DNA of 64,000 bases from Promicromonospora sp. MEB111 (GTDB lineage Bacteria > Actinomycetota > Actinomycetes > Actinomycetales > Cellulomonadaceae), in assembly GCF_030209445.1 (NCBI RefSeq), contig NZ_JARVSD010000008.1:372001-436000 (forward strand), written 5' to 3'. The notes below the pieces were generated by a model that saw only the letters and a list, made by a program, of their open reading frames with translations, did no database searches and was not told the DNA's origin. Positions 2,485-16,249 of the stretch are shown here, in pieces. The stretch's first letter is position 1, and the number at the start of each line of letters is the position of its first letter. The translations under genes and the position numbers were made by a program.

Positions 2485-3779
2485 CCACCACCGGACCGAC
2501 CGTGCCGGGTGACGGCGCCGCCCCGGGCGACCCGTCCGCCCTCGGGCAGCCTGTGCCGGCGGACCCCGCCCGGTACCTGCGGACCCCACTCTTCCGGACC
2601 CTCGTGGTGGGCTGGACGCTCGCGAACGTGGCGGACTCGCTGCTCACGCTGCTCATGGCGGTCTGGGTCGCGGACCTGACGGGCAGCGCCGCGCTCGGCG
2701 GTGCGACGTTCGCCCTGCTGGGCCTGCCCGCGCTCGCCTCGCCGTTCCTGGGGTACCTCGCGGACCGGGTGTCCCGGCGGCGCATGCTCGTGGTCGCCTA
2801 CGTGGTGGGCGCGCTCGGGCTGGTGCCGCTGTTCTGGGTGACCCGGGCGGACCAGGTCTGGATCGTCTTCGCGGCCACGCTGGTGTACTCGGCGGTCGCG
2901 TACGTGACGGGCGCCTGCCAGTCGGGTCTGCTCAAGGACCTCCTGCCGACCGAGGCCCTGGGCCACGCCAACGGGCGCCTGTCGATGATCGACCAGGTGT
3001 TCCGCGTGGCCCTGCCGCTGCTCGGCGCGGCGGTCTACGCCCTGGTGGGCGTGGTGCCGCTGGTCGTGGTGGCCATCGCGGGGTTCGTGGGCGCGGCGGT
3101 CGTGCTCGGCCTCGTGCGGATCACCGAGTCGCGGTTCGAGGGTGAGCCGGGCGAGTCGTACCTGGCGGCGACGACGGCCGGGTTCCGCCACCTGTTCGGC
3201 ACCCAGCCGCTCGGCGGGATGACGTGGAACGCCGTGATCGTGTTCGCGTCGGTCGGCCTCGTGAACGCCGTCGCGTTCGCCGTGCTGGAGGGGCTGGGGC
3301 TGCCCGCGGCCTGGCTCGGCCCGCTCACGGTGCTGCAGGGGGTGACCGGGTTCGTCGCCGGGGCGGTCACGCCGCGCCTCATGCTGCGGTTCGGCCGGCC
3401 GCGCGTCTACGCGGTGGGGATCCTCGCCGCGGGCGTGGCCCTGGTGCCGCTCATGTTCGGCTGGGTGATCCCCGCGATCGCGGGTCAGGCCCTGCTCGGC
3501 TTCGGGGTGACGGCCGCGATCATCGCGTGGGTCACCGAGCGCCAGGTCCGGACGCCGGAACGGCTCCAGGGCCGGGTCGCCGCCGCCGGGCACCTGGTCA
3601 ACAACCTGCCGGGCACCGTGGTGACGGCGATCGGCGCGGGGCTGCTCGCGGTCGTGGACTACCGGCTGCTGGTGCTCGCCAACGTCGTGGTGGTGGTCGG
3701 GGCCGGGCTGGTCGCGCTGCGCCTGCGCCACGCGGCCGACCCGGACGTGTCAGACGCTCAGGTCACCCGGGTGACCTGA
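2481..3779 (+). CDS. major facilitator superfamily transporter
   Basis: Inner-membrane secondary transporter, 432 aa, with about ten to twelve hydrophobic helices after a 30-residue Pro/Gly-rich cytoplasmic N-terminus. The MFS motif A is seen as GYLADRVSRRRML between helices 2 and 3. The gene starts inside the stop of the regulator (ATGA), so it is probably the regulator's main target and an exporter of the drug or metabolite sensed. A role in import cannot be excluded. Its last codons form one arm of a 50-bp palindrome (3744-3793) that separates it from the convergent PknG operon. Confidence 0.88.
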   Translation: MTTTGPTVPGDGAAPGDPSALGQPVPADPARYLRTPLFRTLVVGWTLANVADSLLTLLMAVWVADLTGSAALGGATFALLGLPALASPFLGYLADRVSRRRMLVVAYVVGALGLVPLFWVTRADQVWIVFAATLVYSAVAYVTGACQSGLLKDLLPTEALGHANGRLSMIDQVFRVALPLLGAAVYALVGVVPLVVVAIAGFVGAAVVLGLVRITESRFEGEPGESYLAATTAGFRHLFGTQPLGGMTWNAVIVFASVGLVNAVAFAVLEGLGLPAAWLGPLTVLQGVTGFVAGAVTPRLMLRFGRPRVYAVGILAAGVALVPLMFGWVIPAIAGQALLGFGVTAAIIAWVTERQVRTPERLQGRVAAAGHLVNNLPGTVVTAIGAGLLAVVDYRLLVLANVVVVVGAGLVALRLRHAADPDVSDAQVTRVT

Positions 3780-3793
3780 GCGTCTGACACGTC
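3744..3793. terminator. bidirectional terminator, 24-bp perfect stem
   Basis: A perfect inverted repeat with 24-bp arms and only 2 nt between them. It includes the last 12 codons of the MFS gene and ends 4 bp before the stop of the convergent FHA gene, so it can stop transcription from both sides. Confidence 0.75.
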
Positions 3794-3796
3794 AGG

Positions 3797-4693
3797 TCAG
3801 GCCTCGCCCGGGAGGGCCTTGCGGATCACCAGACGTGTCCACGCGCCGAGGAAGACCCGGTCGTTCTCCTCGATCTCGCGGCGCACGCCCTGGTTCAGCG
3901 GGCCGTCCGGGAGCGGGTCACCCGCCGCCGCCACGAAGGTCCCGTTCGACGAGCCGAGATCCTCGACCCACCAGCGCTGACCGTCCGTCGTGAGCTGGCA
4001 GTGCCGCCGGGACACCCCGGGGTCGCTGCCGCAGTCGATGTCGGGCCGGATGCCGCGCGACCTCGACGGCCGCCCCACGAGCAGGCTGCGCTGCCGCAGC
4101 GTGACGAGGCCGGGCAGGCCCGCGGACGGCATCGGGTCCTCCGGGCGCTCGTGCGCGTACCAGTCGGGGTCCACCCAGATCTCGGCCACCCAGGCGTCCT
4201 CGCCCGGGACGGGCGGCGCGGCCAGGCCGCCGCCGTCCGGCGACGGCGCGGGCGCGGGCGACGGCGCAGGGGCGGGCGCGGGCGCGGGGACTCCCGCCGA
4301 CACCGGTGCCGAACCCGCCGACGCCGCACCGGCCTCCGCCACGGAACCGCTCGCGGGCTGTGTGGCGTCCAGGTCGCCGAGGTCCAGGCCGGACGTCGGC
4401 GGGGGCGGCGGAGCCGGCGTCCCGGTGGTGAAGTCGTACCCGCAGTTCTCGCAGAACAGGGAGTCGGCGGGGGACAGGTCGCCGCAGTTCGGGCAGGTCA
4501 CGGGGCCGGCGGAGGCCTCCGTGGGCGCGGCCGGCGCACCACCGGACGCTCCGGTGCCGGTCGCGACGCTCCCGGGTGCGGCGCCGGACCCGCCGGACGA
4601 CGCGGCGCCGGCGCCCGCGGGGATCGGCGTGCCGCAGACGTCGCAGTAGTCCGTGGACTGGCTGGTGTGTCCCTCCGGACAGACGACGGTCAT
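3797..4693 (-). CDS. zinc-ribbon plus FHA-domain protein (phosphothreonine reader)
   Basis: Cytoplasmic adaptor, 298 aa. N-terminal knuckle with Cys5, His9, Cys17 and Cys20 (TDYCDVCGTP), then a second ribbon with Cys67/70/81/84 (CPNCGDL, FCENCGYDF), a long Ala/Pro linker (about 90-160), and a C-terminal FHA domain (about 195-295) with the hallmark GRP, SRRH and SSNGT segments that bind phosphothreonine. It is the last gene of the PknG operon and overlaps the VWA gene by 4 bp. It is a natural reader of PknG phosphorylation, like GarA/OdhI, but lacks the N-terminal ETTSV-type phosphorylation motif known from GarA, so it is probably not the orthologue. A GDLDAT segment (106-111) also occurs in this locus's PknG. 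Confidence 0.88.
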   Translation of the reverse strand: MTVVCPEGHTSQSTDYCDVCGTPIPAGAGAASSGGSGAAPGSVATGTGASGGAPAAPTEASAGPVTCPNCGDLSPADSLFCENCGYDFTTGTPAPPPPPTSGLDLGDLDATQPASGSVAEAGAASAGSAPVSAGVPAPAPAPAPSPAPAPSPDGGGLAAPPVPGEDAWVAEIWVDPDWYAHERPEDPMPSAGLPGLVTLRQRSLLVGRPSRSRGIRPDIDCGSDPGVSRRHCQLTTDGQRWWVEDLGSSNGTFVAAAGDPLPDGPLNQGVRREIEENDRVFLGAWTRLVIRKALPGEA

Positions 4694-6009
4694 GCGCGCC
4701 GGACCCGGGTCGTCTTGGTGGAGGCGGTGTCGAGTGCCATCTCATCCAGCTTGGCGGTGTTCCGCTTGAGCCGCACGGTGCCCTCCTCCTCGTTCTCCAC
4801 GTCCACGATCTTGCGCAGGCGCGACGTGGCCTCGTCGTTGCCGGTCTCGGCGGCGAGCTGCACGGCGCGGCCGAGCTTCACGGTCGCCGTCGCCTCGTCG
4901 CCGGCGGCCTTGGCCGCGAGGCCCTCCTGGATGGCCGAGGCGAGCTCGGCCTGGCCCGTGTAGTGCGCCACCTCGGGGCTGATCCGGGCGGTGAGCGTGG
5001 AGTCGTCCGACCACTTGGCCTTGACCAGGCCCGACGCCTGCACCTCGCCGCCCACCGCGACCTGCACCCGCGCCGCGAGCTGCTCCGAGCCCACGGGCTT
5101 CGCCGCCACGCGCACGGCCACGTGGTAGTCGCGGGTCTCGTCGGCCCACGCGCCGGTGGGGTACCCGCTGGTCAGCGGGTTCACCTCGGTACGACGGCCC
5201 GTCAGGTCGTCGACCTCGGGGGCCACCTGCTTGACGAACAGGACCTGCGACCCCTGCGGCGCCCACACCCGCAGGTCCACCGAGGCGACGCCGCGCGCCA
5301 TCGACTTGCGCACCAGGGCCGCGAAGTCCTCGGCGATGTCCTCCGGGCGCGCGATGAGGTCGACGGTGCCCAGCAGCGCCGTCGAGATCTTGCGCAGCTC
5401 CTCGACCACCCAGCGGTCGCCCACGCCGCGGGCGTCGCACTGGAAGTGGCCCGTGACGTCGGCGATCATCCGGTCCAGGTGCATCGACGGCTCGGACTCG
5501 TTCTTGCCGTCGGTCAGCAGGATCAGGTGCTTCTGCGCCGCCGGGACCGTGGCGAAGAGGTCGTCCGCGAGCCGCAGCCACGTCGAGATGGCCGTGCCGC
5601 CGCTGGCCGACATCGTGGAGATGGCGCGCTTGGCCTCGTTGCGGGCGCCCGGCTCCATGGCCACCATCGGCACCCGGGCGTTGGGGTAGGGGAAGATCCG
5701 GGTGGCCACGTGCGAGCCGCCGATGATCGCGAACAGCGTGCCGTCCGGGATCTGGTCCACGGCCACGGCGGCGGCGTGCTTGGCGGCCTCCATGTTGCGG
5801 CCCTGCATGGATCCGGACGTGTCGACGGCGACGATCTCGGCGACCTGTCCCGCGCCGACGGCGTCGGTGGTGGCGCTCGCGCCCGCGGTGACGCCGACGG
5901 CCCCGGCCGCCCCGGCGCCGGCGCAGGTCACGGACACGATGGCGTGCACGTCGGTGCCGCCGTCGGACAGGAACTCGTTCTGGAAGACCTCGGCGGAGAA
6001 CTCGGCCAC
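4690..6009 (-). CDS. von Willebrand factor A domain protein
   Basis: 439 aa with a VWA domain from about residue 55 to 240. The MIDAS metal site is seen as DTSGS at 63-67, with LLTDGKNE farther on; VWA domains bind partner proteins through a bound divalent ion. The rest is a beta-rich middle region and a C-terminal helical part that may act as a scaffold. It starts with GTG at 6009 behind a GAGGAG ribosome site and overlaps the FHA gene by 4 bp. VWA proteins often act with AAA ATPases as chaperone-like pairs. An AAA gene is in the same operon (13012-14409), so a VWA-AAA pair is a reasonable inference. No signal peptide is seen, so it is cytoplasmic. Confidence 0.85.
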   Translation of the reverse strand: MAEFSAEVFQNEFLSDGGTDVHAIVSVTCAGAGAAGAVGVTAGASATTDAVGAGQVAEIVAVDTSGSMQGRNMEAAKHAAAVAVDQIPDGTLFAIIGGSHVATRIFPYPNARVPMVAMEPGARNEAKRAISTMSASGGTAISTWLRLADDLFATVPAAQKHLILLTDGKNESEPSMHLDRMIADVTGHFQCDARGVGDRWVVEELRKISTALLGTVDLIARPEDIAEDFAALVRKSMARGVASVDLRVWAPQGSQVLFVKQVAPEVDDLTGRRTEVNPLTSGYPTGAWADETRDYHVAVRVAAKPVGSEQLAARVQVAVGGEVQASGLVKAKWSDDSTLTARISPEVAHYTGQAELASAIQEGLAAKAAGDEATATVKLGRAVQLAAETGNDEATSRLRKIVDVENEEEGTVRLKRNTAKLDEMALDTASTKTTRVRRA

Positions 6010-6034
6010 GGTGGCTCCTCTCGGTTACGGCAGG

Positions 6035-7150
6035 CTAGCGCTGCTCGGTGACAGTCGGGGCGATCCGGGCGAGCGCGGCGGTGATGTTGTCGCGCCCTCC
6101 CTGGGCGTTGGCCCAGCGGACGAGCGCCGCCGCGGCGGCGTGGGGCTCGCCGCAGCCGGCGAACCGGCGCACGAGCTCGCCCATCTCGTGCGCGTCGGAG
6201 CAGTAGTTCCACAGGCCGTCCGAGCAGACCAGCAGCCAGCCGGGCCCGGACGGGACGGTCGCGGCGCAGCGCGCGTCGGTGTCGGCGGCGTCGGGGCCGA
6301 GCCAGCGGGTGATGGCGTGCGCCTGCGGCGACGTCTCGGCCTGGGCGCGCGGCACGCCCGCCGCGATCATCTCCTGCGCCCACGAGTCGTCGACGCTGAG
6401 CTGCTCGGCCGGACCGGCGTCCGGCAGCCAGTACACGCGGGAGTCGCCCAGCCAGCCGGCGACGATCAGGTCGCGGTCCACGACGGCGGCCACGAAGGTG
6501 CACGACGGCGGGTCGTCCGCCACGTTCGTCCCCTTGGTCGCGGCGAGCTGCTCCGCCGCGCCCCGCACCGCCTGGCCCGCCGCGCGCGACGCGGCGACCA
6601 TGGCGTCGGTCCAGCCGGCGATGCGCCGGCTGGTGGCACCCGCGACCGAGCTCGACCCCTCGGGCCCGTAGGCCACGAGCACGTCCCGGGCCGCGCGGCT
6701 CGCGGCGAGCGAGGCGACGTCGGAGTCCGGGGCGCTGGAGACGCCGTCGCACACCACGAGCGCCGCGAAGGTGCTGCTCGCGGCCAGCGCCATCGCGTCC
6801 TCGTTGCGGGCGTGCCGGATGCCCCGGTCGCAGACGCCGGCCACCCAGGCCGCCGGGCGCTCCTCGAAGTGGTCGCGCTCGGACTGGCCGGGGGTGCCGC
6901 AGTCGGCGCAGTAGCCGTCGTCGGCGATGAGGCCGCCGCAGGCCGCGCACCTGCGCCGCCCGGCCTCGCCCGTCGGCGGGTCGAGGTCCAGCACGGTGGG
7001 TGCCACGTCCAGGGTCACCTCGGACGGCAGGGACGGGTCGTCCGCGACGGGGCCCAGCGCCGTGCCGCAGTTCTCGCAGAACCTGGCGCGGGGTGCCGCG
7101 CTCTCTCCACAGCTCGGGCAACGGACGAGGACGCTGTCGTCGGCGGTCAT
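6035..7150 (-). CDS. PP2C-family Ser/Thr protein phosphatase with two zinc knuckles
   Basis: 371 aa. N-terminal ribbons carry Cys11/14/25/28 and Cys68/71/81/84; the second ends DDGYCADCGTP, matching the knuckles of PknG and the FHA protein in this operon. The PP2C domain (about 95-365) shows RHARNEDAM, VCDGVSS and WLGDSRVYW, which supply the metal-binding acidic residues. It would dephosphorylate PknG or its targets in the cytoplasm. It starts with ATG at 7150 behind GGAG, 111 bp after pknG ends, with a hairpin between (7222-7241). This is the widest gap in the operon, so the phosphatase, VWA and FHA genes may be expressed at a different level from the upstream part. Confidence 0.9.
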   Translation of the reverse strand: MTADDSVLVRCPSCGESAAPRARFCENCGTALGPVADDPSLPSEVTLDVAPTVLDLDPPTGEAGRRRCAACGGLIADDGYCADCGTPGQSERDHFEERPAAWVAGVCDRGIRHARNEDAMALAASSTFAALVVCDGVSSAPDSDVASLAASRAARDVLVAYGPEGSSSVAGATSRRIAGWTDAMVAASRAAGQAVRGAAEQLAATKGTNVADDPPSCTFVAAVVDRDLIVAGWLGDSRVYWLPDAGPAEQLSVDDSWAQEMIAAGVPRAQAETSPQAHAITRWLGPDAADTDARCAATVPSGPGWLLVCSDGLWNYCSDAHEMGELVRRFAGCGEPHAAAAALVRWANAQGGRDNITAALARIAPTVTEQR

Positions 7151-7221
7151 GTCGGGGTCGATCTCCTTGCCTTCGTCAGGGCTCCCGCCCCGCGACTGTG
7201 GTTCAGCGGGTCTCCGGCTGC

Positions 7222-7241
7222 GGGCGCCGTCGGTGGCGCCC
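7222..7241 (-). terminator. small intercistronic hairpin after pknG
   Basis: Seven-bp perfect stem GGGCGCC / GGCGCCC with a 6-nt loop, 21 bp past the pknG stop. It may be a partial terminator or an RNA processing site that lowers expression of the downstream phosphatase-VWA-FHA genes. Confidence 0.4.
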
Positions 7242-7261
7242 GGTCCGGCCCGGCGGGGCGC

Positions 7262-9553
7262 TCATCGCCACGTCCACTGCCGTACGGAGTTTGCCCGGTC
7301 CACGAGCGCGACGCGCTCCGAGCGCTCGTCGGTGAGGTGGGCGAGGTTGCGCAGGGCGAGCTCCAGGCGGTCCCGCAGCTCGTGCTCCTCGGCGCTCGCA
7401 CCGGCCACCCGCACGCTCGGGACGGGCCCGTCGCGCAGCACGATGTCGAGCGCCTCGTCGAGGGCCTCGACGGTGACCTGGGCCTTGGGCCGGTCGGGGA
7501 TGTGGGCGGCGTCGAGCCCGGCGACGGCGTCGGCCAGGTCGAGCAGCGTGCGGTGCGCGGAGACGAGGAGCCGGGCCCGCTGCAGGCGGGCGTCCGGGAA
7601 GGACCCGCGCGTGGGGCCCACCAGCTCCAGTGCGTCGAGGGCGCCGTCGAGCTCGCCGCCGCCGGACCGCACGCGGGCGAGGCCGAACGCGGCGGCGCCG
7701 GTGTAGTTGGCGTCGGCCCGGGCGATGGTGCCGTAGAGCTGCTCGGCGACGCCGGGCTCGCCCGAGAGCTCGCAGCTCGTGGCGAGCGCGAGCTTGGGCG
7801 CCGGCTCGCCGGGCACCTGCCCGTAGACGGCGTTGAACGACGCGCGGGCCGCGGCGGCGTTGCCCGACGCGAGGTGCCCGAGGCCCTCCATCCAGGCGGC
7901 GCGCCACTCCCACGCGTCGTCCTCCAGGATCTGCGCCACGGTGGTGCGCAGCAGCGCGGCGTCGTCCGCCTCGATCGCGGCGCGGGCGACGGCGAGGCGC
8001 ACCTCGACGGTGTGCTCGTCCGGGTCGGCCAGGGCCTTGATGCGCTCCACGGGGTCGGCGACGTTGACGCCGGCCAGCCAGGAGGCCATCGGGTCGGCGG
8101 AGTCGACCTTCAGGAGCGGCAGCTCGTTCCAGTCGAGGGCGCCGTCGGCGCCGTCGAGCGGCGGCACGCCGAACAGGAGCGACTCGGCGGACGTCGTGGC
8201 GGTGTACCCGGGACCCTTGTCGGTGGCGACCACCTCGCGCAGCACGCCCAGGAGCTGGACCCGGGCCTCGTCCACGGTCCCGAACCGGTCGGCGGGATCG
8301 GGGGCGCACGCCTTGGCGAGCCAGCGGTAGAACGAGTCGTACTTCTGGAAGACCGGGGTGTCGGCCACGGGCGGGAACGACGCCTGGTAGACGGTGGTGT
8401 TGCCGCGGAAGTCCAGCACGAGGGACGCCAGGGTGCGGCCGAGCGTGAAGATGTCGGACGCCACGGACGGCCCGACCTCCGGCACCTCGGGCGCCTGGTA
8501 GCCGACGGTGCCGTAGATGGCCGACGTCAGGTCGTCGGTGCGGCGCACGCCACCCATGTCGATCAGCTTGACGCCGTCGCCTTGGGCGATGATGTTGTCC
8601 GGCTTGAAGTCGCAGTACAGCAGGTCGTGGTCGTGCAGGTAGCTGAACGCGGGCAGCACCTCGAGGATGTAGGCGATGGCCTGGTCCACGGGCAGCGGGC
8701 GGGGCTGCCCGCCGTCCTGCTCGCGGCGGTCCTTGAGCACGTCCTTGAGCGACCGGCCGCCCACGAACTCCATGACGGTGTAGCCGAGGCCCTCGTGGAG
8801 CACGAAGTTGAAGATCTCGACGATCAGCGGGTGCTCGACCTCGGCCAGGAACTGGCGCTCGGCGACCGCGGCCTCGTACGCCTCGGTGTCGCCCGCGTTG
8901 AGCAGGCCCTTGAGCACCACCCAGCGGCCGCTGACGTTGCGGTCGCGGGCCAGGTAGATCCAGCCGAGCCCGCCGTGGGCGAGGCAGCCCACCACCTCGT
9001 ACTGCCCGGCGACGAGGTCGCCGGCCTTGAGCGCGGGGGCGAAGTCGTACCGCGCGCCGCAGTGGCCGCAGAACCCGGCGATGCGGCCGGGCACGCCGTC
9101 CCTGGCGCGGCCGACCGGCTGCCCGCACGTGGGGCAGTACCGCTTGGACTCGGCGAGCTCGGGCGTCTCCATGACGGCCTGCAGCGGGTCGGCCACCGGC
9201 GTGTGCGGCACGGTGGTCAGGCCCGCCCCGAGCCGGTGCCCGCGCAGGCGGGTGGACCCGGTGCCGACCCGGCGGGTCTGCCGGGTGCCGCCCGTCACGC
9301 GCGCCGAGCCCAGGGCGGTGGACGCGAGGCGCGACGAGCTGGTGCGCCCGGTCGTCGGCTCGGCCATGGCGCTCGGCACGGAACCCGAGGAGCGGACGGT
9401 CGTCGCGTCGAGGTCGCCGTCGGCCCAGGACGCCGCGACGGCGGCGAGCCCGTCGCCGGCCGGGTTGCCGCCGGCGGGCGTACCGCACACGTTGCAGTAG
9501 CCGTCCTCGATGGTGCCGGTGCAGCCCGGCTCGGCGCAGGCCTGTTCAGTCAT
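7262..9553 (-). CDS. pknG: Ser/Thr protein kinase PknG (rubredoxin-kinase-TPR)
   Basis: Soluble kinase that in mycobacteria and corynebacteria links external amino-acid sensing to 2-oxoglutarate metabolism. 763 aa. Order: an N-terminal knuckle (Cys6/11/20/23, DGYCNVCGTP), a linker with GDLDATT (46-52), a rubredoxin-like domain (Cys140/143/162/165), a kinase domain (about 183-440) with ATP lysine 215 in VVLKG, catalytic loop YCDFKPDN and DMG in place of DFG, then helical TPR repeats to the end (NSVRQWTWR). The catalytic loop and IDMG variant match the unusual PknG pattern. Start ATG 9553 overlaps the upstream stop (ATGA). The extra N-terminal knuckle is not in the M. tuberculosis protein as I recall it. 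Confidence 0.95.
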   Translation of the reverse strand: MTEQACAEPGCTGTIEDGYCNVCGTPAGGNPAGDGLAAVAASWADGDLDATTVRSSGSVPSAMAEPTTGRTSSSRLASTALGSARVTGGTRQTRRVGTGSTRLRGHRLGAGLTTVPHTPVADPLQAVMETPELAESKRYCPTCGQPVGRARDGVPGRIAGFCGHCGARYDFAPALKAGDLVAGQYEVVGCLAHGGLGWIYLARDRNVSGRWVVLKGLLNAGDTEAYEAAVAERQFLAEVEHPLIVEIFNFVLHEGLGYTVMEFVGGRSLKDVLKDRREQDGGQPRPLPVDQAIAYILEVLPAFSYLHDHDLLYCDFKPDNIIAQGDGVKLIDMGGVRRTDDLTSAIYGTVGYQAPEVPEVGPSVASDIFTLGRTLASLVLDFRGNTTVYQASFPPVADTPVFQKYDSFYRWLAKACAPDPADRFGTVDEARVQLLGVLREVVATDKGPGYTATTSAESLLFGVPPLDGADGALDWNELPLLKVDSADPMASWLAGVNVADPVERIKALADPDEHTVEVRLAVARAAIEADDAALLRTTVAQILEDDAWEWRAAWMEGLGHLASGNAAAARASFNAVYGQVPGEPAPKLALATSCELSGEPGVAEQLYGTIARADANYTGAAAFGLARVRSGGGELDGALDALELVGPTRGSFPDARLQRARLLVSAHRTLLDLADAVAGLDAAHIPDRPKAQVTVEALDEALDIVLRDGPVPSVRVAGASAEEHELRDRLELALRNLAHLTDERSERVALVDRANSVRQWTWR

Positions 9554-10653
9554 CGGTGTCCCTCCGGGAGATCGCGCACGAGCGTCTCGAGCTGCTCGGT
9601 GAAGTGCCGGGCCAGGGCCAGGTCGCAGGGGGTCGCGTCGAGCGTCTCGCGCACCTCGTCCTCGCCCGCCTTCACGGTGTACGACGACGCCCGCCCGTTG
9701 CCCTGGGCCTTCGTCATCAGGTTCTTCACGCGGTAGCGCAGCTCGGCGCGCTCCCGCAGGGGTGCGGTGTAGGCGTCCTCGACCTGCTCCATGGCGCGCT
9801 CGACGGAGCCCAGCCGCTGGACGTAGGTCGTGAGCCGCGCCGGCTCGTCCGGGACCTCGCCGAGGCGGTGCACGTCCGGGATCGCGAGCCGTGGCGGGAC
9901 GGCGATCTCCCGGCGGCAGCGCTCGGCGAGCTGCGCGAGCCGGGGCGCCCGGTCGGCCAGGGCGGCACGCAGCTCGACGGCGCGCTGCCGGTCCTTGGCG
10001 AGCGACCGGCTCCGGGCGGCGTGCACGATGAGGTCGCGCTCGGTGCGCGCGACCTCGTCCTCCAGCGCGCCGAGGGGGCCCGTGACGTCGGCGCCGCGGG
10101 CGGCGTCGGCCTTGAGCCGGGCGTGCCGGTCGCGCAGGCGGGCGACGGCGGCGTCGTCCTCCGTCGCGGCCGTGGCCCGCGCGGCGTCCTCCGCCCGGAC
10201 GATCCCGGCGGCCAGCGCCCGGAACCGGGCGGTGACGTCGGCCGCGTGCGGGTCGAACGAGAGCCGGGAGGCGAGCTGGTCGGCCTGGGCGTCGCACAGG
10301 CGTGCGGCGTCGACCAGGGACAGGAGCGACGTGGCGGGGTCACCGCCGAGCCGGCCCCAGACGAGCTGCGACATGCGTTCGCGCGCCACGGCGTCCGCCC
10401 GGCCCGAGTCCCACACCTCGACCAGCTCGTCCGTGCGCGTGCGCACGGCCTGCCACAGGGTCAGGGCGAGCACCACGTCGGCGGTGACGGCGTCCGCGCC
10501 GGACTGCCGGGCCGCGGCGTCGAGCCGGTCCAGGTCGGCGCGGCGCACGTCGAGCCACGCCTGCAGGTCGGACAGGTACGCCAGCAGCGCGGCCGGCTCG
10601 GCCGCCACCCCCAGGGCGCCCGGCGGCGCGGGCGCGCGCTGCGTCCGGCTCAC
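9550..10653 (-). CDS. coiled-coil protein of unknown function in the PknG operon
   Basis: 367 aa, almost entirely alpha-helical with long charged stretches (for example LEDEVARTERDLIVHAARS) that look like coiled coil at about 140-300. No signal peptide, membrane helix or enzyme motif is seen. It starts at GTG 10653, overlapping the stop of the GlnH-like gene (GTGA), and ends overlapping the pknG start (ATGA). It therefore sits exactly between the sensor lipoprotein and the kinase, a place that is empty in the mycobacterial glnX-glnH-pknG order. It could bridge the membrane sensor to PknG. I do not recognise the family. Confidence 0.8.
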   Translation of the reverse strand: MSRTQRAPAPPGALGVAAEPAALLAYLSDLQAWLDVRRADLDRLDAAARQSGADAVTADVVLALTLWQAVRTRTDELVEVWDSGRADAVARERMSQLVWGRLGGDPATSLLSLVDAARLCDAQADQLASRLSFDPHAADVTARFRALAAGIVRAEDAARATAATEDDAAVARLRDRHARLKADAARGADVTGPLGALEDEVARTERDLIVHAARSRSLAKDRQRAVELRAALADRAPRLAQLAERCRREIAVPPRLAIPDVHRLGEVPDEPARLTTYVQRLGSVERAMEQVEDAYTAPLRERAELRYRVKNLMTKAQGNGRASSYTVKAGEDEVRETLDATPCDLALARHFTEQLETLVRDLPEGHR

Positions 10654-11687
10654 GGCGTCCGTCCGTACACGGGCTCGGGCGCGGACGGCGCCGCGCCGAG
10701 CGCGTCGCCCAGCCAGCGGTCGTAGGACTCCTCCCACTGCCCGCCCGCGACCATGTCCTCCAGCACGCCGTTGACGAACCGCACCATGTCCGCGTTGCCG
10801 GCGGGGATGCCCACGCCGTACGGCTCGTCGCTCACGGCGTCGCCGACGACCTTGGCGTAGGGGTCCTGGGCGGCGAAGCCCGCCAGGACGGTGTCGTCAC
10901 CCGTGATGGCGTCCACCGCACCCTGCTGGAACAGCACCAGGCACGTGGTGTGCGTGGCGGCGGGCACCGCCTCGACGCCCTCCCACTGCTCCAGCCGCTC
11001 CAGGGTGGTGGTGCCCTCGGGCGCGCACACGCGCTGCCCGTCCAGGTCGTCGATGCTCTCCACCTTCGACGTCGACGGCACCAGCAGCTTCTGCCCCGCG
11101 TGGTAGTACTCCGCGGAGAACGCGATGTTCTCCCACCGGTCGCAGTTGATCGTGAACGCGCGGGTCACGATGTCGACGTCGCCGTCCTCCAGGACGGCCT
11201 CCCGGTCGCCCGACGTGATGACCCGGTACTGGATCTTCTCCGGGTCGCCCAGGATCGCGTCGGCGATCTGCCGGGCCACGTCGATGTCGAAGCCCTCGAT
11301 GTCGCCCGTGAACGGGTTGCGCGAGCCCATGAGCAGCGTGTCCGCCGAGACGCCCACCCGGAGGGTCCCGCGCTCGCGGATCTCGGCCATCGTGGAGCCG
11401 GACGTCACCTCCGGGCTGCCGCCCGGGTCGATCGACGCGACGGGCGGCAGCCCGTCGCTGCAGTCCTCCGCGGCCGTGGCCGTGCCCGACGTCGTCGCGC
11501 CCGCCGCCGCCTTCGGCGCAGAGTCCTGAGCGGAGTCCCGCACCGACTCCTGCGCGGCCGAGCCCGCCCCGGCCGCGCCCGTCAGGAGCTGCGTCGTGGG
11601 CTGGGGCGCGCACGCCGCCGTCGTGCCGACGAGGGCCAGCGCCACCAGGGCGGTGACGATCGGTCTGCGGGCTGCGCGCGTGCTCAT
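10650..11687 (-). CDS. glnH: GlnH-like glutamate/glutamine-binding lipoprotein
   Basis: Solute-binding lipoprotein of SBP family 3, 345 aa. A lipoprotein signal peptide ends at Cys26 (VGTTAAC). After a low-complexity linker to about residue 80 comes the binding fold: GTLRVGVSADTLLMG, GFDIDVARQIADAILG and CAPEGTTTLERLEQW. In mycobacteria GlnH binds Asp/Glu/Gln and signals through GlnX to PknG rather than feeding a transporter. No permease or ATPase is next to this gene, which fits a sensor. It starts at ATG 11687, overlapping the glnX-like stop (ATGA). Ligand is inferred from context. Confidence 0.87.
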   Translation of the reverse strand: MSTRAARRPIVTALVALALVGTTAACAPQPTTQLLTGAAGAGSAAQESVRDSAQDSAPKAAAGATTSGTATAAEDCSDGLPPVASIDPGGSPEVTSGSTMAEIRERGTLRVGVSADTLLMGSRNPFTGDIEGFDIDVARQIADAILGDPEKIQYRVITSGDREAVLEDGDVDIVTRAFTINCDRWENIAFSAEYYHAGQKLLVPSTSKVESIDDLDGQRVCAPEGTTTLERLEQWEGVEAVPAATHTTCLVLFQQGAVDAITGDDTVLAGFAAQDPYAKVVGDAVSDEPYGVGIPAGNADMVRFVNGVLEDMVAGGQWEESYDRWLGDALGAAPSAPEPVYGRTP

Positions 11688-13015
11688 CGGTACTCCTTCA
11701 GGCGGACGTTCATCCCGGCGGCCGCGGCGACGGCGCCGGCGACACCGAGCACGAGGGCGACCCAGGCCGCGATCTGGGCGGTGGTCGCCGCGGAGCCGAG
11801 CCGGTCCACCGCGGCGGTGCTCGTGGTCTCGACGTCGGCGTGGGCCTGGTCGGAGAACGCCGTGAAGGCCGCGCCCGCCGAGTCGTCGGCCGTGGACGTC
11901 GCGGCGTCGACCGCCTCGTCCCACTGGCCGCCGTCGTCCAGCGCGCGGATCTCGGCGTGCTTCTCGTCCCAGGCGTTCAGCAGGGCCAGCGGGTCGGAGC
12001 CGGTGTCCGAGGCGTCCTGCGCCTCGGTCAGCAGGTCGCGGGCCTGGGCGACCGAGGTCTGGTAGGACTCCTCGAACTCGGCGCCGGAACCGCGCTTGAT
12101 CAGCGTGAACGACTCCATCGACTTGGCGTCCGTGGCGAGCGACAGGGCCTGCGACGTGGCGACCGTGGCCGCGTACGGGCCGCTCGCCACCGACCGGGCC
12201 ACGCCGTTGCCGCCCAGCACCGCCACCGTCGCCACGATGCCGCCCACCAGCAGGGCGACGCTCGCGGCCGCCAGCCCCAGGTTCAGCCGGCGGTGCGTGC
12301 GGCGCGCCAGCCAGAGCTGGACGGCGGCCAGCGCCACGAGGCCGAGCAGCACGAACAGCAGCAGCGCCTGGCTCAGGGAGACGGAGGTCAGGTCGTCGTC
12401 CACCCGCTCGGACGTCGAGACCGCCACGTCGTCGAGCGTGGGCAGCACCTCGTCGCGCAACGCGGCGGAGGCCTGGTCCAGGTAGGCCGCGCCGACCGGG
12501 AAACCCTGCCGGTTGTTCGCCCGGGCCGACTCGACCAGGCCCGCGTACCGCTGCACCGAGTCCGACACCGTGGCCAGGTCCGCGGTCTCGTCCGCCCCCT
12601 GCGCCGTCGACGCAAGCGCCGGCAGCGCCTCCGCGGCCTCGGACACGCTCGCCTCGTAGCGCTCGCGGGCCTCCGTGGGCTCCAGCCCGCCGACGAGGAA
12701 CGCGTTGGTCGCCGTCGCGTCCGCCGACACCAGGTCGTTGCGCAGCTCCTGCGTGCCGACGAGCTGCGCGGCGTCCCGCTGCGCGTCCCGCAGGGCCGCC
12801 GACTGGCTGCTGCCCGCCAGGAACCCGGTGACCGCCAGCAGCAGGCACGCCACCACGGCCACGGCGGTGGCCAGCGCCAGCCGGCCCGGCGTGGTCGCGA
12901 GCTCCGCGGTGATCCGGTCCCGGACGGAGGTGCGCGCGGGGCCGTCGTCCGGGGCCCCGGACGCCGGGCCCGGCTCGCTCCGGGGCGGGCCCGTGGTGGT
13001 CAGGGGTGCCGTCAC
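11684..13015 (-). CDS. glnX: GlnX-like four-helix membrane sensor protein
   Basis: 443 aa integral membrane protein. Hydrophobic segments are seen at about 46-66, 210-235, 240-265 and 405-430. Between helices 1-2 and 3-4 are two extracytoplasmic helical domains of about 140 residues, similar in layout to four-helix-bundle ligand sensors. The order glnX-glnH-(gene)-pknG is conserved with mycobacteria, where GlnX passes the GlnH signal across the membrane. The cytoplasmic N-terminus is Pro/Gly-rich and the C-terminus is a short basic tail (NVRLKEYR). Start GTG 13015 overlaps the AAA stop. Identification rests on topology and gene order more than on motifs. Confidence 0.8.
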   Translation of the reverse strand: MTAPLTTTGPPRSEPGPASGAPDDGPARTSVRDRITAELATTPGRLALATAVAVVACLLLAVTGFLAGSSQSAALRDAQRDAAQLVGTQELRNDLVSADATATNAFLVGGLEPTEARERYEASVSEAAEALPALASTAQGADETADLATVSDSVQRYAGLVESARANNRQGFPVGAAYLDQASAALRDEVLPTLDDVAVSTSERVDDDLTSVSLSQALLLFVLLGLVALAAVQLWLARRTHRRLNLGLAAASVALLVGGIVATVAVLGGNGVARSVASGPYAATVATSQALSLATDAKSMESFTLIKRGSGAEFEESYQTSVAQARDLLTEAQDASDTGSDPLALLNAWDEKHAEIRALDDGGQWDEAVDAATSTADDSAGAAFTAFSDQAHADVETTSTAAVDRLGSAATTAQIAAWVALVLGVAGAVAAAAGMNVRLKEYR

Positions 13016-14409
13016 AGGGTGGCCTCGCTGTCTGTCCCGATGTCCACGACGTCCTCCAGGTCTTCCGGGACCAGCGTGCGCAGCTGGTCCACCGTCGGTC
13101 GTTCAACGTCCCGCAGGCGCCAGGCGTGCCGGGCGATCGCGGAGTCGAGCACGTTGCGTGCCCAGCGGCCGTTGCCGAAGCCCTCGCTGCGCACCTGGTC
13201 CGCCACGAGGCGGTCGAAGCGGTCGAGGGTGGCGGGCTCCGGCTCGAAGTCGGCGGCCCCGGCCATGGCCGCGAAGATCTGCCGCAGCTCGGCGGCGGAG
13301 TAGTCCTCGAACGTGATGGTCCGCGAGAACCGGCTCTCCAGGCCCGGGTTGGTGCCGACGAACCGGGCCATCGGGCCCGGGTAGCCCGCCACGATCACCA
13401 CGAGGTCGTCGCGGTGGTCCTCCATGTCCTTGACCAGGGTGTCCACCGCCTCGCGGCCGTACTGGTCCTCGGCCAGCGCGTACGCCTCGTCGATGAACAG
13501 CACGCCGCCCAGGGCGCGCTGCACCACAGCCGTCGTCTTCTCCGCGGTCTGGCCCAGGTAGCCCGCCACCAGCTCGGACCGGTCGACCTCCACGAGGTGG
13601 CCCTTGTCCAGCAGCCCGAGTGCGCGGTAGATCCCGGCCACGAGGCGGCCCACCGTGGTCTTGCCCGTGCCGGGGTTGCCGACGAACACCAGGTGGCGGG
13701 TGAGCGTGGGGGAGGTGAGGCCGGCCTCGGCGCGGAGGCGCTCGATGCGCAGCAGCTCGGTCTGCCGGTGGATCTCGTCCTTGACCCGGCCCAGGCCGAT
13801 GAGCTGGTCCAGCTCGTCGAGCAGCTCGGCCAGCGGGCGGGGCTCGTCCGCGGGTTCCGGCTCGGGTTCGGTCCCGGCGGCCTGGGTGGCCGGCTCGGGC
13901 TCCGTGGCGGACGGCGTGGGGGCCGGTGCGCCGAGCCTGAGCCCGGGGTCGGCGCCGGCCCGGGGCGCCGTCTCGCGGCCCGCCGCAGCGCTGCGGTGGA
14001 CTGCTTTCGTGCCCTCTGCGGCGGCTATGGCGCTGATGCTCGGGTCGCCCAGGGTGGCGGCCGCGTCGACGACGGCGGCCAGGGCGTCGGCGTAGCCCGG
14101 GGCGTGCTGCGGGGCGGTCGTGATGAGGTGCTCGAGCAGGTCGGTCGGGGCGGAGCGCCAGCGGCGCGCGCTCACGGCGGCGTCGAAGAACGGCTGGAGC
14201 GTGGACGACGTCGGGCGGCCGGTGCTTCCTTCCGGGCCGACGTCGGCGGCGGTGGCCTTGAGCCAGTCCGTCGGGGCGCCGGGGGACGACTCCGCCACCG
14301 CGGCGGCCAGCCGCTCGCCCTCGGCGCGCGCTTCCGGGCCGCCGAGGCCGGTTGCGGTGCCGGCTGCGGCCAGGGCGTCGAGGGCGGTGGCCAGCGCCGT
14401 CGTGGTCAC
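13012..14409 (-). CDS. CbbX-type AAA+ ATPase
   Basis: 465 aa. The N-terminal ~190 residues are helical and variable and end in an acidic Pro/Glu linker; the AAA+ module follows at about 205-460. Walker A is GNPGTGKTT and Walker B is GVLFIDEAY. The RFSRTITF segment carries the arginine-finger region and GRWARNVLD the sensor-2 region. This is the CbbX/EccA/stage V K subfamily, which remodels protein complexes in the cytoplasm. It is coupled by GTGA overlaps at both ends. In this operon it could remodel the TelA, VWA or PknG complex. The substrate is unknown. Confidence 0.88.
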   Translation of the reverse strand: MTTTALATALDALAAAGTATGLGGPEARAEGERLAAAVAESSPGAPTDWLKATAADVGPEGSTGRPTSSTLQPFFDAAVSARRWRSAPTDLLEHLITTAPQHAPGYADALAAVVDAAATLGDPSISAIAAAEGTKAVHRSAAAGRETAPRAGADPGLRLGAPAPTPSATEPEPATQAAGTEPEPEPADEPRPLAELLDELDQLIGLGRVKDEIHRQTELLRIERLRAEAGLTSPTLTRHLVFVGNPGTGKTTVGRLVAGIYRALGLLDKGHLVEVDRSELVAGYLGQTAEKTTAVVQRALGGVLFIDEAYALAEDQYGREAVDTLVKDMEDHRDDLVVIVAGYPGPMARFVGTNPGLESRFSRTITFEDYSAAELRQIFAAMAGAADFEPEPATLDRFDRLVADQVRSEGFGNGRWARNVLDSAIARHAWRLRDVERPTVDQLRTLVPEDLEDVVDIGTDSEATL

Positions 14410-15008
14410 GGGGCCTCCAGGGGGCCGGGGCCCGCCGTCGGGCCCGGGCCTGCCGTGCCCGGACCTGGCAGTGGCTGGCCCGGCTGGGGCTGGCCGGACG
14501 GCGACTGGCCGGCGCTCGGGAGGGTGAGGCTGCCCGAGGTGCCGAACTTCTCCTCCAGGAACCGGCCGTGCGCCACGAGGGCCACCGCGTCGGCGCGGGA
14601 GACGGCGTCGGAGATCTTGTCGAGCGTGGCGCCCAGGAGGTCCAGCTGGTCGCACAGGATTAGGAGCGACGTCTTGCCGCGGTCCACGACGCGCCGGTCG
14701 GCGAAGTCGCGCGGCAGCCGCAGGTAGGCGTCGACGGCCTCCGGCAGGTAGCTCGTCGCCGTCGCCACCACGGTGTGTGCCTGCTGGGAGCCCGCGCCGA
14801 GCCGGTCCAGCCGCGGCGCCATCTCGTGCACGGTCTCGGCGACGCGCTGCACCCGGGCCGTGACGGCAGCGGGGGCCTTCCCGGACGCGCGCGCCAGCAC
14901 GGCGTCGACGGACGTGACGATCTGCTCGGTCGTGGGCGGCGCCGGGATCGCGAGGGGCGGCTCCGCCTCGGTGCGTCCGCCGCCGAAGACCCGCTGCCAC
15001 CAACCCAT
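14406..15008 (-). CDS. hypothetical helical protein between TelA and AAA genes
   Basis: 200 aa from ATG 15008, which has GGGGG five bases upstream; a GTG at 15035 overlapping the TelA stop is the alternative and would add nine residues. The product begins MGWWQRVFGGG, has a helical core at about 30-150 (SLLILCDQLDLLGATLDKIS) and a Pro/Gly-rich tail. No domain is recognised. Its place directly after telA and before the AAA ATPase in a tightly overlapping operon suggests it works with them. TelA-linked partners in other bacteria (for example XpaC-like proteins) are also small helical proteins, but no similarity was established here. Confidence 0.75.
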   Translation of the reverse strand: MGWWQRVFGGGRTEAEPPLAIPAPPTTEQIVTSVDAVLARASGKAPAAVTARVQRVAETVHEMAPRLDRLGAGSQQAHTVVATATSYLPEAVDAYLRLPRDFADRRVVDRGKTSLLILCDQLDLLGATLDKISDAVSRADAVALVAHGRFLEEKFGTSGSLTLPSAGQSPSGQPQPGQPLPGPGTAGPGPTAGPGPLEAP

Positions 15009-15031
15009 GCGTTCCCCCGTGCCCGCTGCCG

Positions 15032-16249
15032 TCACCGGTTGCCGAGGTCGAGGGAGCCGCTCGCCACGCCGTCGGTGTTGGTGCGCCGGGCCCGCTCGAC
15101 GTACTCGGAGGCCTTGGTCGTCTCGGTCTGCAGCACGCCGATGGTCTGCGACATCGAGTCCAGCGCGCGGGTCTTGAACTCGCTGATGGAGTCCATCGTC
15201 GCGTAGATGTTGGCGAACGCCGACTGGAGCTGCTCGATGCCCACGGTCGAGCTCGCGGCCTGCTCCTGGATGGTCGCGGACTGGTCGGCGAGCATCTTGG
15301 ACGTGGACGCGATCATGTTCGACGTCGTGGTGTTCAGGGCGCCGATCTGGTCCAGCACGAGCTTCTGGTTAGCGAGGGCCTGCGCCACGATGACGGCGGT
15401 GCGCAGCGCCGAGACCGTGGTCGTGGTGGCGCGGTCGACGCCCTTGGTGAGCTCGACGTTGTTCTTGATGATGATGTCGATCGCGAGGTAGCCCTGGATC
15501 GAGACCGCGAGCTGGGTGAGCAGGTCCTGGTGCTTCTGGCGCACGTAGAACAGCACGTCCTCGGACAGCGCCTTGGCCCGCTCGGGCTCGGCGATCTGCA
15601 GCTCGGCGATCTTCGCGGAGAGCTGGGCGTCGAGCCGCTCGGCCACGTAGATGTACTGGTTGAGCCGCGTCATCGTGTCCCAGAGGTTCTGCTTCTCCAG
15701 GTTGAGCGCGGCGTTGTCCTTGCGCAACTCGTCCTGCCCGTTGTAGAGGGCCTGGATGATGGCGTTGAGCTGGCCCTGGGCGGACTCGTAGCGGCGGAAG
15801 TAGTCCTGGATCTTGTCGCCGAACGGGATGACGCCGAGGATCTTGCGGCCCACGCTCGCCTCGGACGGGTCCAGGTCCTCCACCGTGCGGCGCAGCTCCA
15901 GGAGGGTCTGGCCCACCTTCGAGCCGTCGGCGAGGCCGCCCTCCTTCAGGGCGCGGACCGGCGTGGCCAGCAGGCGGTTGCTGGAGTCGGCGGCCTGCCG
16001 GATGTCCTGGTCGCCCATGGTGCGCACGTCGTCGGCGCGCCGGGCGAACTCGGGGGACCGGGTGTCGGTGCCGAGCAGGCCGTCGAGGTAGGTCGTGACC
16101 TTCTGGTCGAGCGCGGGCGCCACGGCGGGGTCGACCTTGGGCGCCATCTTGGGCGCCTGCGTCGCGGGCACGGCCTGCACCGGGTCGGGCGCCGTGAGCA
16201 CGAGCGGCTCTGCTGGCGCGGGGGGTTGAAGCGGCATCGGCTCGGTCAT
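15032..16249 (-). CDS. telA: TelA-family (toxic anion resistance) protein
   Basis: 405 aa cytoplasmic helical protein, first gene of the PknG operon. After a Pro/Ala-rich 60-residue N-terminus comes the long coiled TelA region: FGDKIQDYFRRYESAQGQL, NLWDTMTRLNQYIYVAERLD, RQKHQDLLTQLAVSIQGYLA and the QTTTVSALRTAV-type stretch. TelA proteins are linked to tellurite and stress tolerance and are often next to TerD, VWA and PP2C genes, but their biochemical role is unsettled. The ATG at 16249 is chosen over upstream possibilities because GAGGAG lies 6 nt before it and a good -10 (TATACT) at 16290-16285. Confidence 0.9.
   Translation of the reverse strand: MTEPMPLQPPAPAEPLVLTAPDPVQAVPATQAPKMAPKVDPAVAPALDQKVTTYLDGLLGTDTRSPEFARRADDVRTMGDQDIRQAADSSNRLLATPVRALKEGGLADGSKVGQTLLELRRTVEDLDPSEASVGRKILGVIPFGDKIQDYFRRYESAQGQLNAIIQALYNGQDELRKDNAALNLEKQNLWDTMTRLNQYIYVAERLDAQLSAKIAELQIAEPERAKALSEDVLFYVRQKHQDLLTQLAVSIQGYLAIDIIIKNNVELTKGVDRATTTTVSALRTAVIVAQALANQKLVLDQIGALNTTTSNMIASTSKMLADQSATIQEQAASSTVGIEQLQSAFANIYATMDSISEFKTRALDSMSQTIGVLQTETTKASEYVERARRTNTDGVASGSLDLGNR

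Follow-up and report, generated by a model that had tools for sequence, protein, structure and literature searches.

A conserved ten-gene locus around the protein kinase PknG in Promicromonospora encodes a candidate phospho-switch

The protein kinase PknG, much studied in mycobacteria, is known as a member of the GlnX-GlnH-PknG-GarA/OdhI cascade of Mycobacterium and Corynebacterium (PMC6069109, PMC9769921). A larger gene set built around PknG is present in a stretch of 64,000 nucleotides of Promicromonospora sp. MEB111 (contig NZ_JARVSD010000008.1, positions 372,001 to 436,000), hereafter the window, which comes from a genome of 6.23 Mb. On the minus strand, at 3797-16249, ten genes follow one another in the order TelA-Xpa-AAA-GlnX-GlnH-CC-PknG-PP2C-VWA-FHA; PknG and TelA each have a single match in the genome. 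This locus has in common with the described cascade the GlnX family, GlnH, the rubredoxin/kinase/TPR build of PknG and a separately encoded GarA homologue, but differs from it by seven extra genes, by a zinc ribbon added to the N-terminus of PknG and by the replacements T162 to A and W232 to H in GlnH. An earlier note on this DNA had called the ten minus-strand genes in this order, a call supported by Pfam and NCBIfam, and had placed sensor, kinase, phosphatase, phosphothreonine reader and TelA/AAA genes in one gene string, which was borne out. It had further suggested that the assembly was undescribed; in agreement with this, a literature search, with subscription journals mostly outside it, returned only the three-gene operon, although Fig. 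2B of PMC6069109, a STRING neighbourhood plot, may show neighbours. The ten genes are the following.

15032..16249, minus strand: TelA-family protein of 405 residues, first gene (PF05816, residues 66-385, 312 bits for a cut-off of 30).
14406..15035, minus strand: Xpa, an unknown protein of 209 residues, possibly distantly related to XpaC and a partner of TelA (weak hhalign match to PF10112-type proteins).
13012..14409, minus strand: AAA+ ATPase of the SpoVK/EccA/CbbX group, 465 residues (AAA 61 bits, AAA_lid_6 54 bits).
11684..13015, minus strand: GlnX-family membrane signal transducer, 443 residues (NF058618, 296.7 bits for a cut-off of 250).
10650..11687, minus strand: GlnH-like solute-binding protein, 345 residues, probable lipoprotein (SBP_bac_3; PDB 6h1u).
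9550..10653, minus strand: CC, a helical/coiled-coil protein of 367 residues, directly upstream of PknG (AlphaFold 2 model).
7262..9553, minus strand: PknG kinase, 763 residues, with N-terminal zinc ribbon, rubredoxin, kinase and TPR domains (PF16919, PF00069, PF16918).
6035..7150, minus strand: PP2C phosphatase, 371 residues, with two zinc ribbons (PP2C_2 55 bits, DZR).
4690..6009, minus strand: VWA protein, 439 residues, with an intact metal-ion-dependent adhesion site (DTSGS) and VWA_3_C (VWA_3, PF18571; AlphaFold 2 model).
3797..4693, minus strand: FHA-domain protein, 298 residues, with two zinc ribbons, last gene (FHA 45 bits, DZR).

Parts of this gene set recall other described systems. 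In the threonine phosphorylation pathway of type VI secretion, the kinase PpkA, which has an extracellular VWA domain and is thought to be fed by an outside signal, works with PppA and Fha1 (PMC3224232). A Ser/Thr kinase, a PP2C phosphatase, an FHA protein and a VWA domain are likewise encoded in one locus here, a likeness of working for which no homology is claimed; the VWA module is however a separate protein with a tail motif, and none of the ten genes, to which the search was confined, is a type VI secretion gene. Listeria XpaC-TelA also pairs TelA with an adjacent small protein, whereas here an AAA+ gene follows and the pair is joined to a kinase string. The GAP1-N2 triads have a zinc-ribbon kinase, an active PP2C and a stand-alone vWA protein in adjacent actinobacterial genes, as here (PMC7159879), but the present kinase is of the PknG type with a TPR domain, it is accompanied by a solute-binding sensor, an FHA reader and TelA, and no GAP1-N2 GTPase occurs among the ten genes. 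The locus does not qualify as a vWA-MoxR ternary system: its ATPase combines AAA with AAA_lid_6 and falls in the SpoVK/EccA/CbbX group, not with MoxR.

We propose, with a probability of about 0.45, that the ten genes form a single signalling operon with three blocks, a sensor, a switch and an output. The probable lipoprotein GlnH would bind an extracellular small solute, probably an acidic one, and signal its state to GlnX, a membrane protein with four helices, which would control PknG through the TPR domain, with CC as a probable adaptor. PknG would then phosphorylate one or more threonines in the flexible C-terminus of VWA, which reads LDTASTKTTRV here. Once phosphorylated, this tail would be bound by the FHA protein, and PP2C would remove the phosphate. 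Similar zinc ribbons would keep PknG, PP2C and the FHA protein together on a shared scaffold, for which the VWA protein is the probable candidate. The VWA-FHA complex would drive or recruit the TelA/XpaC-like pair and the AAA+ ATPase at the membrane, and the output would be a response to envelope stress, or a remodelling of the membrane, linked to nutrient state, with GarA as a possible second output acting on metabolism.

The earlier note had named a lack of conservation of this gene order in relatives as a refuting result, and the order proved to be conserved. The close-relative set comprised 59 genomes, source genome included, and a match to the PknG rubredoxin domain was found in 23 of them (13/13 of the same genus with the source, 8/24 others of the same family and 2/22 of the same order), with one PknG per genome in 13/13 genomes of the genus. 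The full ten-gene order was kept in 18 of the 22 PknG loci from the other genomes; the remaining four were a cut contig (L061), an N-gapped scaffold (L058) and two short operons, GlnX-GlnH-PknG-PP2C in L074 and GlnX-GlnH-PknG-FHA in L076. Four more complete loci (L089, L090, L092 and L112) came from a class-wide sample of 37 hand-picked loci (L078-L114). The ten genes were also in order in 52 of 80 named loci, which are the best matches to the ten-gene type of PknG among the matches listed and are biased towards that type; this set overlaps with the close relatives, since L115-L118, at the least, come from the same genomes as L071, L065, L068 and L069. Six named loci on full-length stretches were variants, lacking GlnH (L171, L174, L183 and L184), GlnH and AAA (L193), or GlnX and GlnH (L192); absences were judged by hidden Markov models, and the intervening genes were inspected in L171, L183, L184, L192 and L193. 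The other incomplete loci were L129, which is N-gapped, and 21 on stretches shorter than 22 kb, mostly cut by contig ends (L190 has all genes but GlnH). The broken order in L058 and L129 was discounted as evidence, as these scaffolds carry eight N runs. Complete loci occur, among others, in Cellulomonas, Cellulosimicrobium, Oerskovia, Kineosporia, Kribbella, Nocardioides, Terrabacter and Intrasporangium, and Promicromonospora and Cellulomonas are soil bacteria in which the extended operon could be studied. The flanking genes mostly do not travel with the operon: among 74 loci, in a count in which some genomes occur twice, 11 have the OppA-like gene, none of them outside the window's genus, and seven have the MFS gene, five in the genus and two outside it (L072, L121).

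Seven of the nine junctions of the locus are 4-bp overlaps, whereas PknG and PP2C are separated by 111 bp and PP2C and VWA by 25 bp, and we infer that the ten genes are co-transcribed as one operon. In the named loci the start overlapped the previous stop by 4 bp for PknG in 71/76 cases, PP2C in 66/74, GlnX in 64/68, GlnH in 58/59, CC in 47/60, FHA in 47/64, AAA in 43/64, Xpa in 6/63 and VWA in 5/68, counts that lean towards coupling because the script assigning the starts favours a 4-bp overlap wherever a start codon permits.

Four architectures were distinguished, of which the ten-gene form is type A. Type B (families f36 and f37) typically reads GlnX-GlnH-(weak CC match)-PknG-PP2C-VWA-FHA, type C (f35) typically reads (weak CC match)-PknG-PP2C-VWA-FHA-GlnX-GlnH, and type D (f22) is GlnX-GlnH-PknG alone, with a GlnH nearly identical in reading to that of M. 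tuberculosis. Family f22 is probably Mycobacteriaceae and f37 probably Streptomyces-like.

The element that suggests a switch function for the VWA protein is its C-terminus.

4702..4746, minus strand: residues 422-436 of the VWA protein, its threonine tail and a candidate phospho-switch (conservation in 31 sequences).

In an alignment of 31 sequences, 10 of the 15 positions of this tail (DEMALDTASTKTTRV) are invariant and its mean conservation is 0.96, compared with 0.75 for the whole protein. Only 10 of the 425 segments of that length are as conserved, two lying on the tail and eight in one helix (343-366). In the AlphaFold 2 model, residues 420-429 form a helix and residues 433-439 have a predicted local distance difference test (pLDDT) score below 50. 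Of the 90 type A VWA proteins, 89 contain the motif L[DE]TxS[TSV]xT, the sole miss (L177) being a cut contig; so do 9/15 of type B (15/15 if A, S or V is allowed for the first threonine) and 9/10 of type C. The motif is altered or lost in L099 and L111, two PknG-VWA pairs without an FHA match, which are two cases only. T433 is followed at +3 by V or I in 31/31 aligned VWA sequences, the spacing favoured by many FHA domains. An acidic residue precedes T428, as one precedes the threonine in the ETTS site of GarA/OdhI (PMC8546545). The best structural match of the VWA protein is 4fx5, a von Willebrand factor type A protein of Catenulispora acidiphila (template modelling score of 0.88, 43% identity), which has the fold and the kind of C-terminal motif in common with it. 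Conserved, predicted to be flexible and encoded between the kinase and phosphatase on one side and the phosphothreonine reader on the other, the tail suggests itself as a phospho-switch candidate; it is the principal new, though indirect, support for the mechanism, and as a short peptide it would allow a direct in-vitro test.

The enzymes and the reader that such a switch would need keep their catalytic and phosphothreonine-binding motifs. PknG has a rubredoxin domain with two CxxC motifs (PF16919, 91.3 bits), a kinase core (PF00069, 90.3 bits) and a C-terminal TPR domain (PF16918, 178.9 bits), and matches PDB 2pzi with an E value of 7e-139; K215, D315, N320, D332 and C140/143/162/165 are invariant in 16 aligned sequences. 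The metal-binding Asp motifs of PP2C are present (14 aligned sequences, the PP2C part of the alignment having been read in part), and the FHA core motifs GR, SRR and NG are found in 14/14 aligned sequences, with H replaced by Q in SRRH in L056 and L089 and NGT replaced by NGS in L090. CC, modelled almost entirely as helix with a pLDDT of 93.7, had no PDB match at E<=0.001 in a fold search, and neither CC nor Xpa matched a Pfam family.

PknG, PP2C and the FHA protein each bear, in addition, a ribbon ending in D(G)YCxxCG.

9485..9538, minus strand: N-terminal zinc ribbon of PknG (C6, C11, C20 and C23 invariant in 16 sequences).
6899..6949, minus strand: DGYC-type zinc ribbon of PP2C (alignment and pattern).
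4634..4681, minus strand: DYC-type N-terminal zinc ribbon of the FHA protein (alignment and pattern).

The PknG ribbon pattern was detected in 97/98 type A, 6/8 type B and 8/11 type C sequences (111/117 in total), and in 0/9 type D sequences and 0/4 short loci (0/13 in total); the FHA ribbon pattern was detected in 86/86 type A sequences. These counts rest on one regular expression, which is loose for PP2C and misses variant ribbons, such as those seen by eye in L074 PP2C and L076 FHA. The distribution fits a docking role of the ribbons inside an extended complex, with exceptions. A PknG-PP2C fusion suggested by a shared frame in L172 was rejected: the locus is a fragment of a metagenome-assembled genome in which the PknG match stops early, and a frameshift error is likelier.

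Co-occurrence was examined in 394 genomes of the class. PknG was found in 144, VWA_3_C in 101 and both in 97; VWA_3_C was present in 95 of the 110 PknG genomes outside f22, compared with 2 of the 34 inside, and in these two, additional PknG copies sit in complete type B clusters (L268, L269). Since VWA_3_C accompanies PknG in such a proportion of genomes outside f22, it is the three-gene operon that looks like the exception. The VWA partnership, which the earlier note had set against the three-gene path of mycobacteria, is not a local novelty: PknG with VWA is usual outside f22, and PknG is present in 97/101 VWA_3_C genomes. At least 78 of the 99 strong VWA_3_C places sit 3.1-6.3 kb downstream of PknG on the same strand, in at least 76 of 89 genomes. 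In six of the 21 unlinked places (L262-L267), PP2C, VWA and FHA occur together in 6/6, and L267 adds a PknG-like frame; a simple motif pattern found no kinase in L262-L267, but misses even the PknG-like frame of L267. One f22 genome (G409; L079, L080 and L268) has four PknG rubredoxin matches, including three-gene, lone and full type B copies.

In a tree computed from 58 PknG sequences, type D forms one clade (100/100), to which the two extended f22 copies (100/99 as a pair) are sister, and type A together with the short loci L074 and L076 forms another (100/100). The topology indicates that TelA-Xpa-AAA was probably gained once, the trio being specific to the type A clade, and that L074 and L076 probably lost parts of the operon. 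The three-gene form was plausibly reduced from a larger operon, a conclusion that depends on the root: the tree was midpoint-rooted on a long branch (L111), and a parsimony count made by hand gave about the same number of changes for a root placed within the three-gene clade. Of the wiring set out in the earlier note, only the TelA-XpaC-like-AAA addition is specific to the type A clade. A bolder formulation, which we hold only tentatively, is that PknG did not arise as a kinase for GarA under the control of a three-gene operon. Its native form would be a phospho-switch: PknG would mark the threonine tail of a dedicated VWA scaffold, a dedicated FHA protein would read the mark and a dedicated PP2C would erase it, with similar ribbons joining the parts. 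The mycobacterial operon, perhaps cut down from a larger machine, would be a remnant that lost VWA, FHA, PP2C and the PknG ribbon, and one large actinobacterial clade would have added TelA-XpaC-like-AAA as a membrane-stress machine. According to the legend of Fig. 10 of PMC9769921, the GlnX-PknG interaction has not been demonstrated. The extended operon supplies candidate PknG partners whose genes have stayed side by side.

In the sensor block, GlnX belongs to its family by the NF058618 score and is a relative, not a member, of the PknG-activating equivalog NF041460 (128 bits, below the cut-off of 780); its hydropathy profile has four peaks (48-66, 218-236, 248-266 and 415-433). The N-terminus of GlnH has a hydrophobic segment (9-27) followed by a Cys, which makes it a probable lipoprotein, and its closest PDB match is M. 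tuberculosis GlnH (6h1u, E value 8e-62), in which R147, T162 and W232 contact the ligand side chain (PMC6069109). Of 79 type A sequences, 78 retain R147, whereas 68 have His in place of W232 and 64 have Ala or Asn in place of T162; the 11 loci of the window's genus all retain R147 and have Ala for T162 and His for W232. The Asp/Glu pocket is therefore not conserved here, two of its three side-chain contacts being replaced, and sensing of these amino acids cannot be assumed; the ligand may be acidic and need not be Asp or Glu. In L192 (Ornithinimicrobium cerasi), a charged protein of 528 residues (5755-8815) stands in place of GlnX and GlnH and is perhaps a different sensor.

The proposed output block is specific to type A. 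Xpa cannot be taken as a plain XpaC: the Pfam model PF10112 matched 0 of 18 members and 0 of 6 wider relatives, and profile matches were weak (hhalign E value of 2.9e-4 in pairwise comparison and probability of 40% for the broad family against PF10112-type proteins; E value of 0.003 and probability of 10% for the close set against XpaC, with 0.34 for a control with CC). Xpa has no hydrophobic segment here. The ATPase has the Walker motifs GNPGTGKT and LFIDEA; the label CbbX-type given in the earlier note stands as a resemblance to the SpoVK/EccA/CbbX group and is otherwise loose, as the protein scores far below the three NCBIfam equivalog cut-offs (SpoVK 249/423, EccA 236/467 and CbbX 220/459 bits). 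Xpa matches were found in 54/394 genomes of the class, 11 of them strong (E<1e-70, source included) and all in PknG genomes, the rest being distant. TelA was present in 13 of 19 fetched regions with distant Xpa matches. A VWA protein lies between TelA and Xpa in six clusters tested with Pfam (L214, L220, L222, L223, L224 and L230), matching SBP_bac_11 in L220, L222, L223 and L224 and giving no or a sub-threshold match in L214 and L230; in L218 a solute-binding/VWA-type protein precedes Xpa, with no TelA match, and in several TelA-Xpa clusters a protein with a hydrophobic N-terminus and no Pfam match precedes TelA. In Listeria, xpaC-telA (lmo1966-lmo1967) is a putative operon, and disruption of lmo1967 raised sensitivity to nisin and tellurite (PMC12791056). 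Because TelA and Xpa cluster with VWA or solute-binding proteins away from PknG, and because of this link to envelope stress, we suggest that TelA-Xpa serves as a membrane-stress output for solute-binding sensors and VWA proteins, acting together with them in more than one setting. The mechanism of TelA/XpaC-type proteins is called unknown in PMC12791056, and the operon gives them a regulatory context. Two side observations concern these proteins. In L219 (6508-9048), TelA and an Xpa-like segment share one stop-to-stop frame of 847 residues, a possible fusion or assembly artefact in one draft genome, and in L271, from the same phylum, a PF10112 match adjoins a frame that reads like VWA by eye.

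Several observations weigh against a three-block operon centred on the VWA tail. The first threonine of the tail is missing in 6/15 type B sequences, and an invariant tail could bind something without being phosphorylated. PP2C-VWA-FHA clusters with the VWA tail occur in f36 (L262-L264) with no PknG match within the 18 kb read. L109 PknG has a variant ribbon, recognized by eye, in a locus from which PP2C, VWA and FHA are absent. Eleven of the 80 named loci have GlnX adjoining CC and no GlnH match, and L192 lacks both sensor genes; because GlnH, or GlnX and GlnH, are absent in some loci, the sensor is exchangeable or non-essential. The co-occurrence counts come from phylogenetically non-independent genomes. 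Finally, GarA keeps its TT motif with or without PknG in the genome (26 of 28 frames found among 31 GarA loci), and the textbook target could be the sole one.

This last point belongs to an alternative that we consider unlikely, in which GlnH, GlnX and PknG act on GarA alone to set 2-oxoglutarate flux, PP2C resets GarA, and VWA, FHA and TelA-XpaC-like-AAA are co-expressed and functionally separate. Such a cascade is the known set of mycobacteria and corynebacteria, PknG has the same domains as in M. tuberculosis, and a GarA/OdhI homologue with an N-terminal DTT is encoded elsewhere in the source genome (G000:C34:208013-208360, 156.5 bits, below the NCBIfam cut-off of 200). Against this alternative, VWA_3_C is nearly confined to PknG genomes, and the gene order is kept across families while the flanks mostly are not. 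The OdhI model matched in 58 of the 59 relatives, never above the curated cut-off, and PknG is present in only 23, from which GarA does not need PknG in relatives.

Equally improbable in our judgement is that the FHA protein reads autophosphorylated threonines at the N-terminus of PknG, as GarA does, the VWA tail being a constitutive peptide or anchor and the VWA protein a chaperone-like assembly factor. N-terminal phosphothreonines recruit the FHA substrate in PknG of M. tuberculosis and C. glutamicum (PMC8546545), and DATTVR is present in the N-terminus of PknG here, but just two of the 16 aligned type A kinases retain it, whereas the VWA tail is nearly invariant. A biological-conflict or defence system that senses envelope attack, akin to the GTPase-linked kinase-PP2C-vWA triads or to Ter systems, is very unlikely: a zinc-ribbon kinase does stand beside PP2C and a stand-alone vWA protein in GAP1-N2 neighbourhoods (PMC7159879), and TerD follows TelA-Xpa in L216 (Pfam) with a TerD-like sequence near them in L227 (by eye), but PADLOC called no known anti-phage defence system at the locus, giving only generic matches to a kinase (PD-T4-6 type) and AAA and a weak JetA match to TelA (17 bits), each of the 13 genomes of the genus has a single PknG, no GTPase or effector is encoded among the ten genes and the ATPase is not a MoxR.

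Scans of the locus found no sigma-70 promoter and no intrinsic terminator with a T-run. Its downstream end may be marked by a different element.

3744..3793, strand not assigned: perfect palindrome of 50 bp where the FHA and MFS genes converge, a candidate terminator shared by the two.

The palindrome overlaps the MFS stop codon and stops 3 bp short of the FHA stop; as minus-strand RNA it folds into a hairpin of -59.7 kcal/mol (z -9.1), which may be the operon end and serve as a terminator for both genes. Within the gap between PknG and PP2C, a mini open reading frame of 20 codons (7203-7265) has a start that overlaps the PknG stop (ATGA), and PP2C begins 115 bp later in another frame.

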